Origin: Treponema sp. | Lineage (GTDB): Bacteria; Spirochaetota; Spirochaetia; Treponematales; Breznakiellaceae | Direction of reading: 5' to 3' | Length of the DNA stretch: 39,377 bases | NCBI GenBank assembly: GCA_009784935.1 | Contig: WQXI01000019.1 | Location: 1 to 39,377, forward strand | Part shown: positions 2,579 to 28,426 of the stretch, one piece after another | Layout of the letters: the number at the start of each line of letters is the position of its first letter | Numbering within the stretch: the first letter of the stretch is position 1 | Program-made: the position numbers and the translations under genes | The notes under the pieces: generated by a model | Told to the model about the DNA's origin: nothing | Seen by the model: only the letters and a program-made list of their open reading frames with translations | Database searches by the model: none

Positions 2579-4885
2579 ATGAAGGCTGTTCATAACAATA
2601 AATATTTACTGGTTTTAGCTGTTGTGTTTATACTTCTTTTTGGGTTGAGCCAAAGCGGAGGCAGAAATAACCAGAGCGGGAGCAGAAGATTGAAAGATAT
2701 TTCTGTTTTTCATAAATACAGCGATTACCGTACACAAGGAAAAAACGCAGCGATTTTTTGCTCGGCATGGGGAAATCTAGAATTGGAAAACGGCGTTATC
2801 CCGTTAGAAAGAAGAGTCAGAAACGGAAGCAAAAGAGTATACAGAGTTAATGCGAGCGGTAATTGCGGAATAATGTTTCCGCTTCATGGGTGGGGAGCGT
2901 TTTCTCTGCAGCAGTACCATGAGAACGGATATATTGAGTTTGATGTACGGGGAGCTGCCGGAGGCGAAAACTTTACCGTTGGCCTTCGTTCTGATACAAG
3001 AAATGTTGTTGTAAACAGCAATGTTTCGCTTGCGTCGCAGAATATTCAATTAACTACAGCATGGCAGACTGTTAGAATTCCTTTAAAAGCGTTTACGGCA
3101 AATAACAGACCCGGATTTAATATAAATAATATTTTATTGATAGAAATTTTAATTTCATCCGCCTCGCAGTTTTATTTATCAGAAATGTATATTAAATCTC
3201 CCGATAACGAAAAACAGTATCCTGTTATAAAAGTTAATCAAACAGGTTATGAATTAAATCATGAAAAATTTGCTTTAGTAAGCAGTTTTCCCGGTATTTA
3301 TAATTTATCTGCAAACACAGAATTTAATGTAATCAATGCAAGCGGGCAGGTAAGGTTTACAGGAAGACTGCAGGCTGTTTCCAGAAACGTTGACGCTGTA
3401 TCAGGCGAAATAGTTTTTAAGGCAGACTTTTCCCAATTTAACGAACCCGGCACATACTCAATTAGAATAACAAATCCTCAAATGCCGGACTCGTTTAAAT
3501 TCATCATTGGCACTAGTGTTTACAATAATCTTTTTATTGATTCGATAAAATACTTTTATTTACAGCGTCAAGGTATAAATATCGAACAAAGGCATGCAGG
3601 AATATTTGCAAGAAGAAATCTTCATCCAAATGACAGCAGAGTAAAAAAATATTCTCAGCGGAATGATCCTAACGCCCCGGTATTTGATGTTTCCCGCGGC
3701 TGGTATGACGCAGGTGATTTTGGAAAATATTTTCCGCCTGCCGCTTCTGCCGTAACCGATCTTTTGCTTGCGTACGAGTTTTTTCCGCAGTTGTTTTTAA
3801 ATAATCAATTAAATATTCCAGAATCAAGAAACGGCTCTCCGGATATTTTAGACGAAGTTAAATGGGCGCTGGATATGATGTTAAAATTCGAAGACGGCTC
3901 AAGCGGCGGTTTTTACGAGGTCGCAAATTACGAAGGAGAAACAATCTACATTATTGACACAAACGGCGTCACAGGAGAAGGTAACACAAAATCAACTAAC
4001 GCAACATCTTGGGCGGCAGGTATCTTTGCTCATGCTTATATTGTGTATAAAGATATTCCTGTTCACAGAGATTTTGCTGCCAGGTGTTTGCAGGCTGCAG
4101 TACGAGCATGGAGCTATTTAGAAAGAAATCCAAACGAACACACATGGGTAAGCGGAGCGGGGAGATCATATTATTATGACACAGCCGATACAGCGAAAGT
4201 TAAATTCTTGGCAGCAGCAGCATTGTACAGAGCAACAGGCGAAGAAAAATATAATCGATTTGTCATAGATAACTATAGAAGACATAATTATCAAAGAGAA
4301 TTTAATGCTTTTCATGTAGTAACTATCGGAGATTTAGGAACAGGTTTTATTCATTATGCAATGAGTTCAAATCCAAATCCCGCCGTTATACGATATTTTG
4401 ATGAAAGGTTCAGAGGGTTCGAATCTGCAATACTTAATATATATAATTCCAACGTTTGGCCTTCAGGGCTGGTTAATTGGGCGTATTTTTGGGGTTCGAG
4501 CAAACCAATTGCGCGTATACCGGTTGAACTTTATATTTGCAATAAGCTATTAAACAGAGATACTTCAAAATCAATAGAGCTTTTGCGGAACAGCGTTCAC
4601 TATATTCTAGGAATTAACCCGCTTTCATTTTCGTTTATTTCCGGTTACGGTGAAAACAGCGTAAAAAATATTTATAGCGGTATTTTTTCCTATAACGGCA
4701 TAATTGAAATACCCAAGGGATACCTTGCGGGCGGAGCAAATCAGTACGAAGCCGGTTTTATGTCCAATTTTGTGTCAAAATGTTATATTGATATCGATCG
4801 CGAATGGACTACCAATGAACACGCTATTTATTGGAATGCAGCTATGGTTTTGTGTCTCGCTGCGGTAATAGGAACTGCAAATTGA
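2579..4885 (+). CDS. Glycoside hydrolase family 9 (endoglucanase-like), secreted or anchored
   Basis: A 768-residue GH9 enzyme expected to cleave beta-1,4-glucans by inversion. A hydrophobic N-terminal segment (about residues 8-25) is a signal peptide or anchor. Residues about 50-205 look like a beta-sandwich carbohydrate-binding module, about 215-310 like the Ig-like CelD N-terminal domain, and about 315-765 are the (alpha/alpha)6 catalytic domain. The catalytic base region WYDAGDFGKY has D377 and D380; the acid is E747 in TNEHAIYWNA. The usual substrate-binding motif ending in HPHHR near the C-terminus is absent: the equivalent stretch reads YGENSVKNIYSG (residues 690-701). So the fold and catalytic pair are present but specificity may differ (exo-acting, xyloglucan or glucosaminidase-like activity are alternatives). 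No Shine-Dalgarno; the promoter predicts a leaderless message. Confidence 0.9.
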   Translation: MKAVHNNKYLLVLAVVFILLFGLSQSGGRNNQSGSRRLKDISVFHKYSDYRTQGKNAAIFCSAWGNLELENGVIPLERRVRNGSKRVYRVNASGNCGIMFPLHGWGAFSLQQYHENGYIEFDVRGAAGGENFTVGLRSDTRNVVVNSNVSLASQNIQLTTAWQTVRIPLKAFTANNRPGFNINNILLIEILISSASQFYLSEMYIKSPDNEKQYPVIKVNQTGYELNHEKFALVSSFPGIYNLSANTEFNVINASGQVRFTGRLQAVSRNVDAVSGEIVFKADFSQFNEPGTYSIRITNPQMPDSFKFIIGTSVYNNLFIDSIKYFYLQRQGINIEQRHAGIFARRNLHPNDSRVKKYSQRNDPNAPVFDVSRGWYDAGDFGKYFPPAASAVTDLLLAYEFFPQLFLNNQLNIPESRNGSPDILDEVKWALDMMLKFEDGSSGGFYEVANYEGETIYIIDTNGVTGEGNTKSTNATSWAAGIFAHAYIVYKDIPVHRDFAARCLQAAVRAWSYLERNPNEHTWVSGAGRSYYYDTADTAKVKFLAAAALYRATGEEKYNRFVIDNYRRHNYQREFNAFHVVTIGDLGTGFIHYAMSSNPNPAVIRYFDERFRGFESAILNIYNSNVWPSGLVNWAYFWGSSKPIARIPVELYICNKLLNRDTSKSIELLRNSVHYILGINPLSFSFISGYGENSVKNIYSGIFSYNGIIEIPKGYLAGGANQYEAGFMSNFVSKCYIDIDREWTTNEHAIYWNAAMVLCLAAVIGTAN

Positions 4886-23793: not shown

Positions 23794-23902
23794 GTCCTGT
23801 GTCAGGAACCGTGCGGGCAGGCGCCGCCTAACCCCGCCAGGTCTGGAAGGAAGCAACGGTAAGCGGAAGCCTGCCGCGCCGCGGAGCTCCTGACGCAGGG
23901 CA
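23794..23902 (+). ncRNA. ffs: Signal recognition particle RNA (4.5S type)
   Basis: A small bacterial SRP RNA of about 109 nt. The conserved core AACCCCGCCAGGTCTGGAAG followed by GAAGCAACGGTAAG carries the tetraloop and the asymmetric loop bound by Ffh. The ends pair into one long rod (GTCCTGTGTCAGGA with TCCTGACGCAGGGC; GGCAGGCG with CGCCGCGC-side partners). A T-rich stretch follows. It lies directly before dnaX, a common arrangement. Confidence 0.95.
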
Positions 23903-25748: not shown

Positions 25749-26339
25749 TTAAATTTTTACTCTTCCCCTAAAACTTCGTGAGAGCGTTAGTTTGTCGATG
25801 TATTCAAGGTTTCCGCCGACAGGCATGCCGGAAGCTAAACGTGTTATTTCTATCGGATAATTTTTCATCGTTTTTTGCAGATACAGCGCAGTTGTATCGC
25901 CCTCGACAGTTGGATTTAACGCAAGGATAATTTCTTTTACGCCGTCAAGCCGGTTTAAAAGTTTATCGATAGAAAGATTTGCTGGGCTTACGCCTTCCAG
26001 CGGAGCGATTAAACCGCCGAGAACATGATACAAACCTAAAAACTCACGCCCTTCTTCTATTATGCGCATGTCCTGCGCAGATTCTATAACGCAGATAATT
26101 GATCTGTCGCGGTTTAAATCCGAGCAGACAAGACAAGGGTCAGTTTCTGTAAAACCGCCGCAGACGCTGCAGCGCCGTATCGCTTGATGTAAAACAGAAA
26201 GTTCTTTTGCAAGATTCTGCGCAAGAGAAGGGCTGTTGTCAAGAATGTAATACGCAATCCGCCCGGCGCTTTTCTTTCCAATCCCCGGGAGTTTAGAAAA
26301 TAAAGAAATCAACCTGTCTAAAGCGTTCACAGTGATCAT
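25749..26339 (-). CDS. recR: Recombination mediator RecR
   Basis: A 196-residue RecR, normal length: helix-hairpin-helix LPGIGKKSAGRIAYYI near the N-terminus, a zinc finger (C57, C60, C69, C72), a Toprim domain (ICVIESAQDMRIIEE, VLGGLIAPLEG, LALNPTVEGDTTALYL) and a C-terminal RLASGMPVGGNLEYIDKLTL. With RecO it loads RecA on gapped DNA. The ATG overlaps the stop of the hydrogenase-chemoreceptor gene by 4 bp, so recR is translationally coupled to it rather than to dnaX-ybaB, with which it converges. Confidence 0.95.
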   Translation of the reverse strand: MITVNALDRLISLFSKLPGIGKKSAGRIAYYILDNSPSLAQNLAKELSVLHQAIRRCSVCGGFTETDPCLVCSDLNRDRSIICVIESAQDMRIIEEGREFLGLYHVLGGLIAPLEGVSPANLSIDKLLNRLDGVKEIILALNPTVEGDTTALYLQKTMKNYPIEITRLASGMPVGGNLEYIDKLTLSRSFRGRVKI

Positions 26340-28426
26340 GAATGCAATGTTTCTTTTTTCTTTGCAATCTCTGTCAATTCATGCATTGAGACGCTTAACT
26401 GCTCAGTCATAGTCAGCATTTTTTTATAAACTACTTCGACTTCGTCGCTTTGCGTTTTTAAACTGTCCAGTGTAGCTGTAATCTCGCTGCTTTCGGCAGA
26501 CAGTTCGTTAAAGGTGGTTATTAAGCTTGTCATTGTTTCGGCAAAGTCATTTATTTCTTTTGACATTTCTGTAATGCGCGCATCTGTATCGCCTGACTGT
26601 TTTGATGTTACAGCTATTCCGTCTATAATGCTTTTTAATGTCTGAGAAATATTGCGTGAGTTTTCTCTTGTGCTTTCTGACAGGCGGCGTATTTCGTTTG
26701 CGACAACAGCAAAACCGGTTCCGGCGTCTCCGGCATGAGCAGCTTCGATAGCTGCATTCATAGACAGCAGGTTTGTGTTGGCTGCAATCGCGCTGATTAT
26801 CTTAATGGCAGAAGCAATGCCGTCTACTGATTGAGAAATACCCTGTACGGATTGTATTGTTTCCCTCATAGAAGCTTTGCCCATTTCGGCGTTGTCTTTA
26901 AGTTCTTCTATTGCTTCCTGCTTGCTTCTTGATAATGCAGAAGTTTCCTTAAGCGAATTAACCATTATTTCGGTCTTCTTGGATGATTCTTCTATAGAAC
27001 GTGATTGAGTTTCTATGCTTCCGCTTAAGTCGTGTACTATAGTATTGATTCCATCGATAAGTTCCGAAGCGCTGTTGATATGCTCTGTGAGAATGTTCAA
27101 TAGTTCTTCTACCTTCATTTCTTCCTGAAGCAGGGCAAGAATGTAGTGCGAACAATTGTTTGGTTTGTTAAGTTTGTTAAAAATAGCCGTCGCCATTGTT
27201 TTACAGCTTCCGTAGCCGCAGGCTGTACAATCGTATATGTCTTCTTTTCCGAACTTTCTTAAGGAGCGGTAAACTTCTTTAAGTTCGGCTTCGTTTGGAT
27301 GCCGGATAAAATTATTTTCTGAGAGATCAAGATAACTGCGGTCATATATTTTTTTCTTCCAGTATCTCTTTAATACCCTATGGAATTTTTTATATACCCA
27401 TTCGCCTCTTTGGTGCCCATGGTATTCTTCCAGTTTATGACGTCTCTTTCTAATCGGGCTTTCCAGTATTGCAGTCGGCACTTTGCTGTTTCCTGTTCCG
27501 GGGCCGCCGTTACATCCCTTTTCGCAGTTTAAGCAGTCAACCAAAAGCGATAATTCGATATTGGTATCCAGAAGCTCAACCATTTCTTCGAGATAAGGAT
27601 AAATAGCATGAACGCCTTCGGACTTATGTGTTTTTCTTCTGATTCCCGGAACAAAGCGTTCTGCTGTATCCAGCAATCCGCCCGGCGAAGAAAACCCGAC
27701 AGCGCGTTCTGCATGAGGTCCTATATAATCGACTTGCGGAAAAGTAGAAAGGGTAACGCTTCGTTCTTCTATATATTCTCTCAGAGAAAGCATTGTTACG
27801 TTGTAGTCCACCATTTTGGTTTCATCAAATTCTCTCTTTTTTGCAATACAGGGAGAAATCATCGCTATTTTATGATCCTTGAATTTTGGATAATACTGAC
27901 GGATCATTTTTACTGTATGAAGCATCGGACTGTCCGCCGGCGCAAGGTAAGGAATTAATTCCGGATGATAAATCTGAATAAAGCTGACAATCGCAGGACA
28001 TGGCTGGGCAATTACAGTTCGTGGTTTATTTAGCTTGATATGCTGAAGATACGAGATAACCGTTAACTCTGCGCCGAAACTTACGTCAAAGAAAGCGTCA
28101 ACACCCAGCGATTTTAACCAGCCGTTAAAATTGAAAAATTTATCAGGAAAGACCGAAGCTATGGCAGGAGCCACAACTGCAACCATTTTTTTACCTTGTC
28201 TTAAATCCTCAAAGAACTGCGGGGCGTCATCTATATGAGAGCGGGCATTATGGGTGCAGATTACTATACAATTTCCGCATCCAATACACAGGTCATGGTT
28301 TATAAGCAGTTTTTCGCCCGAACCGTCCATGCAAAACTTTACCGGACACGCAGTTATACAGGCGTAACAATTGATACACTTCTTTTCGTCTATTTTGATT
28401 ACTGGTGTTAATGCTGTTTTACTCAT
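26336..28426 (-). CDS. [FeFe]-hydrogenase-like sensor fused to a methyl-accepting chemotaxis signalling domain
   Basis: A 696-residue soluble protein with three parts. (1) Two [4Fe-4S] ferredoxin motifs (C17, C20, C23, C27; C47, C50, C53, C57). (2) An H-cluster domain: L1 QPCPAI with C143, L2 SPCIAKKRE with C193, K196 and E199, L3 NCEKGCNGG with C301 and C305. All four cluster-ligand cysteines are kept, but the proton-relay cysteine of TSCCP is proline (P142). A further Fe-S domain follows (C400, C403, C408, C425). (3) From about residue 440 a cytoplasmic MCP coiled coil with the tip NTNLLSMNAAIEAAHAGDAG and GFAVVANEIRRL. No membrane segment is seen. It likely senses H2 or redox state and signals to CheA/CheW. 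The start has GGTGAGG, and the gene is followed by recR. Confidence 0.92.
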   Translation of the reverse strand: MSKTALTPVIKIDEKKCINCYACITACPVKFCMDGSGEKLLINHDLCIGCGNCIVICTHNARSHIDDAPQFFEDLRQGKKMVAVVAPAIASVFPDKFFNFNGWLKSLGVDAFFDVSFGAELTVISYLQHIKLNKPRTVIAQPCPAIVSFIQIYHPELIPYLAPADSPMLHTVKMIRQYYPKFKDHKIAMISPCIAKKREFDETKMVDYNVTMLSLREYIEERSVTLSTFPQVDYIGPHAERAVGFSSPGGLLDTAERFVPGIRRKTHKSEGVHAIYPYLEEMVELLDTNIELSLLVDCLNCEKGCNGGPGTGNSKVPTAILESPIRKRRHKLEEYHGHQRGEWVYKKFHRVLKRYWKKKIYDRSYLDLSENNFIRHPNEAELKEVYRSLRKFGKEDIYDCTACGYGSCKTMATAIFNKLNKPNNCSHYILALLQEEMKVEELLNILTEHINSASELIDGINTIVHDLSGSIETQSRSIEESSKKTEIMVNSLKETSALSRSKQEAIEELKDNAEMGKASMRETIQSVQGISQSVDGIASAIKIISAIAANTNLLSMNAAIEAAHAGDAGTGFAVVANEIRRLSESTRENSRNISQTLKSIIDGIAVTSKQSGDTDARITEMSKEINDFAETMTSLITTFNELSAESSEITATLDSLKTQSDEVEVVYKKMLTMTEQLSVSMHELTEIAKKKETLHS

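Follow-up and report, generated by a model that had tools for sequence, protein, structure and literature searches.

hydS-mcp, a gene on the minus strand of the window (the whole stretch of Treponema sp. DNA analysed here, 39,377 nucleotides), is predicted to encode a cytoplasmic chemoreceptor in which a HydS-like H-cluster head would provide the input and a methyl-accepting chemotaxis protein (MCP) hairpin the output; judged from sequence, we give this reading a probability of about 0.62. The product is most likely a sensory [FeFe]-hydrogenase-type chemoreceptor, of HydDB group C2 by the description in the HydDB table, and it is a largely expected member of a class that has already been classified and little tested. 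Along the protein, two [4Fe-4S] ferredoxin motifs are followed by an [FeFe]-hydrogenase H-domain, a Cx2Cx4Cx16C Fe-S domain, and a coiled coil with the MCP tip. The features, with the evidence for each in brackets, are as follows.

26336..28426, minus strand: hydS-mcp, 696 amino acids, a whole reading frame with its stop codon (single open frame, Pfam, matches in relatives)
28244..28381, minus strand: two [4Fe-4S] ferredoxin motifs, residues 16-61, with C17/20/23/27 and C47/50/53/57 (Fer4_7, motif positions)
27500..28192, minus strand: H-cluster domain, residues 79-309 (Fe_hyd_lg_C, column counts)
27152..27229, minus strand: C-terminal Fe-S motif C400-x2-C403-x4-C408-x16-C425 (PF04060, pattern match)
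26339..27142, minus strand: coiled coil and MCP signalling domain with the tip TNLLSMNAAIEAAHAG, residues 429-696 (MCPsignal, Tsr alignment, tips of own-genome receptors)
25749..26339, minus strand: recR, downstream of hydS-mcp and sharing 4 bases with its end (coordinates, RecR families)

Domain architecture and gene neighbourhood

An earlier sequence-only reading had assigned the gene to exactly the span given above, and the gene proved to lie on the minus strand, which holds one open frame containing the Pfam matches; over these positions, plus-strand frame 1 is interrupted by many stops. The same reading proposed that a single frame joins two ferredoxin clusters, an H-domain, a four-cysteine Fe-S domain and an MCP tip, which was confirmed by the motif positions and by Pfam: Fer4_7 matched residues 16-61 with 41.7 bits (cut-off 27), Fe_hyd_lg_C (PF02906) matched residues 79-309 with an E value of 1.1e-31 and 110.8 bits (cut-off 22.1), the FeS family PF04060 matched residues 398-426 with 25.6 bits (cut-off 23), and MCPsignal matched residues 507-670 with an E value of 4e-28 and 98.9 bits (cut-off 34.6). 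As had also been claimed, no membrane segment was detected by hydropathy in the 696 residues; the maximum mean over 19 residues was 1.49 and fell within the ferredoxin part. The protein gave no HAMP match and, in Pfam, no PAS family at E <= 0.1. AlphaFold, given the hydS-mcp product together with two named relatives, yielded no reliable model (mean pLDDT 33.3).

Beyond recR lie ybaB and dnaX, and polA is found upstream of hydS-mcp. recR is inverted with respect to three other genomes (G033, G015 and G020), where dnaX, ybaB and recR run in one direction and recR and hydS-mcp are convergent; a search around recR found no long near-perfect inverted repeat. Elsewhere in the window, a small bacterial SRP RNA (23800-23898, plus strand) directly precedes dnaX, and positions 2579-4885 (plus strand) encode a family 9 glycoside hydrolase with CBM30, likely a cellulase, in a spirochaete.

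The H-cluster pocket and its maturation

The residues of the pocket were examined by alignment with the catalytic HydA of the receptor's own genome (a 591-codon frame) and by column counts over 75 of 85 gathered rows, namely those of MCP type; G042, the own-genome HydA and eight rows with histidine-kinase, GGDEF or no recognised output were set aside, the labels of G031HK and G042 having been assigned without a Pfam scan. C143, C193, C301 and C305 aligned with the four H-cluster ligands of HydA, so that the numbering of the sequence-only reading was correct, and all four cysteines are kept in 75/75 rows. P142, which adjoins C143 and is present in 74/75 rows, occupies the position of a cysteine in HydA, again as claimed. 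S191 (72/75) and L299 (75/75) replace two pocket methionines, K196 is retained (74/75), and an additional cysteine, C298, is found in 70/75; the exceptions at positions 142, 191, 196 and 298 are all confined to mcp2, a more distant branch of five rows. Tyr126 (74/75) stands where HydA has a Glu, which we take to be the relay residue E279 of CpI, and the K196 position presumably corresponds to K358 of CpI.

Sensory [FeFe] hydrogenases (groups C and D) are recognised by an H-domain with four ligands, by a relay cysteine (C299 of CpI) that is not conserved, and, as defined in PMC8163306, by two N-terminal [4Fe-4S] motifs together with a C-terminal Cx2Cx4Cx16C; the hydS-mcp protein has all of these, with its PF02906 match over cut-off and P142 at the relay position. 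In CpI numbering, the relay residue is C299 and the pocket methionines are M353 and M497 (PMC8163306, PMC10055695). Proline at the relay position is reported for about 10% of HydDB sensory sequences (PMC10055695). The earlier argument that this proline favours sensing over turnover is not supported by the proline alone, because TmHydS, which has Ala at the same position, is reported to turn over H2, and its A131C variant is less active (PMC10055695). Introduction of Leu at M497 in a prototypical enzyme reportedly leaves the [2Fe] subcluster not properly integrated (PMC10055695). TamHydS is described as naturally having Leu at this position (PMC8163306), and HydS enzymes with altered pockets are reported to hold an H-cluster with slow H2 turnover (PMC10055695, PMC8163306).

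Maturase genes occur in the same genome as the receptor. This genome (2.37 Mb, 94.6% complete) encodes four PF02906 proteins: HydA, the hydS-mcp product, a paralogue on contig C11 that is 61% identical and has the same domains, and a histidine-kinase cousin on C54, in which the H-domain is fused to HisKA, HATPase and receiver domains. HydF, HydG and HydE are encoded together on C17, all over cut-off, which is the gene set expected where an H-cluster protein is active. Across genomes, the association of receptor and HydG was weak: among the matches listed, HydG was over cut-off in 12 of the 19 genomes at least 90% complete that have a receptor match of at least 600 residues, compared with 8 of 25 other genomes of that completeness (Fisher p 0.066), and the 25 include three with receptor fragments or a split copy (G008, G036 and G065). 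Among those same matches, HydG was not over cut-off in seven receptor genomes (G028, G029, G049, G050, G055, G058 and G067). In four of them, G050, G055, G058 and G067 (family f5; 96-99% complete), HydF and HydE were likewise not over cut-off, and HydG of G061, a genome of the same family, gave nothing at E <= 0.001 as a query against these four. Catalytic-strength and sensory PF02906 matches are both present in the four, and one PF02906 protein of G067 has intact TSCCP, MPC and ACRGGC motifs; G049 has HydF over cut-off despite having no HydG over it. All seven genomes keep PF02906 matches of E < 1e-90, and the missing maturases are therefore not special to the receptor. In these lineages, either the maturases have been missed or lost, or another maturation route is used.

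These data bear on a rival reading, in which the head uses its Fe-S clusters to sense how reduced the cytosolic ferredoxin pool is, and the H-site has become a relic or contains only the [4Fe-4S] part. Near-complete receptor genomes without detectable HydG, the lost relay cysteine and Tyr126 in place of Glu are consistent with such a redox receptor, which we nevertheless regard as unlikely: a relic would not need invariant ligands, a retained K196 and a near-invariant pocket, strong PF02906 matches persist in all seven receptor genomes without HydG over cut-off, and the receptor's own genome encodes HydE, HydF and HydG. Distinctly less probable is a receptor for another diatomic H-cluster ligand, CO or O2, that would serve in oxygen avoidance, for example. 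H-clusters react with CO and O2, and the behaviour of HydS towards both is described as unusual (PMC8163306), but the analysis of hydS-mcp found no sequence feature in support, and TmHydS and TamHydS are reported to be more CO-resistant (PMC8163306).

Receptor output and proposed signalling

An MCP chemoreceptor is recognised by an MCPsignal domain and a conserved hairpin tip, both of which are present in the hydS-mcp protein. The tip region aligned ungapped to the hairpin of Tsr over 226 positions (structures PDB 8c5v and 6s1k), and the tip MNAAIEAAHAG is common to 11 of the 15 MCPs found in the own genome, the hydS-mcp protein and its paralogue included; two of the others have different tips, and in two no tip was found by the patterns used. 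The protein differs from Tsr in lacking a membrane segment and a HAMP match, and in having Ala and His at positions F373 and R388 (presumably Tsr numbering); His at the latter is usual among own-genome receptors. The chemotaxis genes of this genome include an operon for CheA, a CheW-CheR fusion and CheX (CheA and CheW on C31), in which CheA has Hpt, P2, dimerisation, ATPase and CheW domains (P1-P5 type). Eight CheW-domain matches were found in the genome. On the receptor helices, no match to a methylation-site consensus was found with one relaxed pattern based on the enteric consensus; a CheR domain, as noted, is present in the genome.

That the protein is a slow hydrogenase, whose MCP part would serve only for localisation or dimerisation, is very improbable. 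TmHydS and TamHydS are reported to keep some turnover (PMC10055695, PMC8163306), but no segment was better conserved than the MCP tip in any of four pairings of close relatives (95-97% identity), and the tip is the one used by most own-genome receptors.

The motif C400-C425 was an exact fit to Cx2Cx4Cx16C by pattern match, and each of its cysteines is present in 74/75 MCP-type rows, the single gap being the split copy in G065. The sequence-only reading had taken this Fe-S domain between sensor and MCP to be an extra one; it is not extra, because the motif is reported as common to the sensory groups C and D (PMC8163306, PMC13104023). This point and the proline argument are not supported in the form first proposed, and the coupling of H2 to swimming is an inference. 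The earlier proposal is upheld in that the protein is soluble and of MCP type, that its sensor is HydS-like, and that it belongs to a treponeme lineage, with maturase and chemotaxis genes present in the genome. In TamHydS, the C-terminal cluster reportedly stays oxidised under H2, yet H2 alters the secondary structure (PMC13104023). A redox relay via the C-terminal cluster is thus doubtful, since the TamHydS counterpart is not reduced by H2, and by the same comparison we favour a signal that would enter the coiled coil by conformational change rather than by electron relay.

For the H-cluster chemoreceptor, we propose that HydE, HydF and HydG would load the [2Fe] subcluster and that electrons would reach the H-cluster through the two ferredoxin clusters. 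Binding of H2, or a change in the redox poise of the H-cluster, would alter the conformation of the head; this change would pass via the C-terminal Fe-S domain directly into the coiled coil of the receptor, with no PAS relay in between, and the coiled coil would alter CheA activity through CheW, and hence swimming. H2 may in this way be coupled to swimming.

In loci L100-L129, the last Fe-S cysteine and the MCP tip lie 82, 112, 124-127 or 154 residues apart in the copies that the tip pattern could read; these values are mostly whole heptads apart, and receptor lengths vary within the family. A Pfam scan found the MCP domain in 30/30 receptors, including 10 in which the tip pattern gave no match (C-termini of 12 inspected).

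Relatives, class assignment and significance

Two close named relatives, 80% and 73% identical, come from the Treponema metagenome-assembled genomes Emb289P3bin139 and bin135, whose names we take to indicate an origin in the termite hindgut, and the termite gut is a high-H2 habitat. Hydrogen sensors of termite-gut treponemes were the subject of Ballor et al. 2012; they are reportedly H-domain proteins with a possible link to methylation or chemotaxis, and come from the same kind of host lineage as hydS-mcp. Among 78 genomes searched (the own genome and its kin), a match spanning 600 or more of the 696 residues was present in at least 31, and at least nine of these had two such matches each. 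Phylum-wide, the sensor part (residues 1-429) matched in 85 of 296 genomes at E <= 1e-30, with a best E < 1e-100 in 58.

The MCP-type copies also bear on the possibility, already allowed for by the sequence-only reading, that two genes were joined by a sequencing frameshift or an assembly error, which is ruled out because 74 of 75 copies, hydS-mcp included, carry Fe_hyd_lg_C and MCPsignal in one frame (Pfam), and the one copy with hydrogenase head and FeS-MCP part in separate frames (G065; L064, C56) has a close sister, G219, with a fused receptor. The 74 consist of 55 distinct copies (28/28 and 30/30, three in both), 14/14, the paralogue and four more, and the copies were chosen as best or longest matches, the count giving no rate of other tails on this head; ten other gathered rows are not of MCP type and stand outside it. 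Selection on hydS-mcp is purifying as judged from codon comparisons, with dN/dS below 0.2 in every computable segment; the computable values were 0.06-0.09 for the H-domain and 0.06-0.10 for the coil plus MCP part, synonymous sites being near saturation.

The sequence-only reading had named chemotaxis-linked hydrogenase-like sensors as a class of HydDB type, and HydDB indeed lists group C2 as 'Chemotactic (putative)', a group that may detect H2 and signal by way of methyl-accepting chemotaxis proteins (PMC5037454). The hydS-mcp product resembles this group in linking an H-domain sensor to methyl-accepting chemotaxis signalling, with MCPsignal in the same chain. It shares two N-terminal clusters, an H-domain without the relay cysteine and a C-terminal Fe-S domain with TmHydS (group C, Thermotoga maritima) as reported. 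TmHydS is described with a PAS domain and with Ala/Gly/Ser at the relay, M353 and M497 positions (PMC10055695, PMC8163306), whereas the hydS-mcp protein has no PAS match and Pro/Ser/Leu. M2f-type group C enzymes carry PAS after the C-terminal Fe-S domain; the protein is not filed with the TmHydS-type enzymes, because no PAS family matched at the threshold given above. TamHydS (group D) is likened to it by Cx2Cx4Cx16C, Ser for M353, Leu for M497 and the lack of PAS, and differs in that the portions available of PMC8163306 and PMC13104023 describe no MCP on it. Solved-structure searches returned catalytic hydrogenases, MCPs and some ferredoxin-domain enzymes, with no group C/D entry recognised among the matches listed.

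In the open-licence literature, we found no experimentally characterised H2 chemoreceptor and no biochemistry for the receptor clade, and for characterised H-domain chemoreceptors it gave only the putative class of HydDB. P. carbinolicus was considered as a precedent and rejected, the available part of PMC3543383 describing no H-domain chemoreceptor. A methanogen is reported to swim towards hydrogen (Brileya et al. 2013, cited in PMC4266047). The hydS-mcp family offers compact, soluble, one-chain candidate H2 receptors in treponemes, and would tie H-cluster chemistry to an assayable kinase. A bolder proposal, which we hold to be improbable, is that of a phylum-wide spirochaete family of H2 receptors with a near-invariant Pro/Ser/Leu pocket, C298 in the main clade and an Fe-S-driven MCP, some lineages of which have no recognisable HydEFG; if true, a receptor working without HydEFG would imply that maturation follows an unknown route or that the cofactor is a different one.

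A quick tree of 85 sequences, sampled from the window's phylum, omitted the fragments G065c and G006p, the row G041x and the repeat rows of G000 (the own genome), G020 and G050. The receptors formed a group that excludes the own-genome kinase sensor (support 91/100, SH-aLRT, not starred); three non-MCP rows fell inside this group, and long branches were flagged beside the kinase rows. By Pfam at E <= 1e-6, ten distant or odd proteins comprised four with MCP, two with GGDEF-EAL, two with a histidine-kinase ATPase and two without an output domain. The sensor head is fused to GGDEF-EAL at L133:1201-3771 (G092 C1) and L136:1268-3856 (G264 C1), both heads having the ferredoxin motifs, the H-domain ligands and the C-terminal Fe-S motif; the HydDB rows for [FeFe] group C give kinase-, MCP- and phosphatase-linked types and no GGDEF-EAL type (PMC5037454). 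At L139:587-3352 (G355 C4), a histidine-kinase ATPase takes the place of the MCP in a protein that has C298 and sits among the MCP rows, on a long branch whose place in the tree is unsure. From this protein, output domains seem to have been swapped on the sensor head, as far as its sequence suggests.
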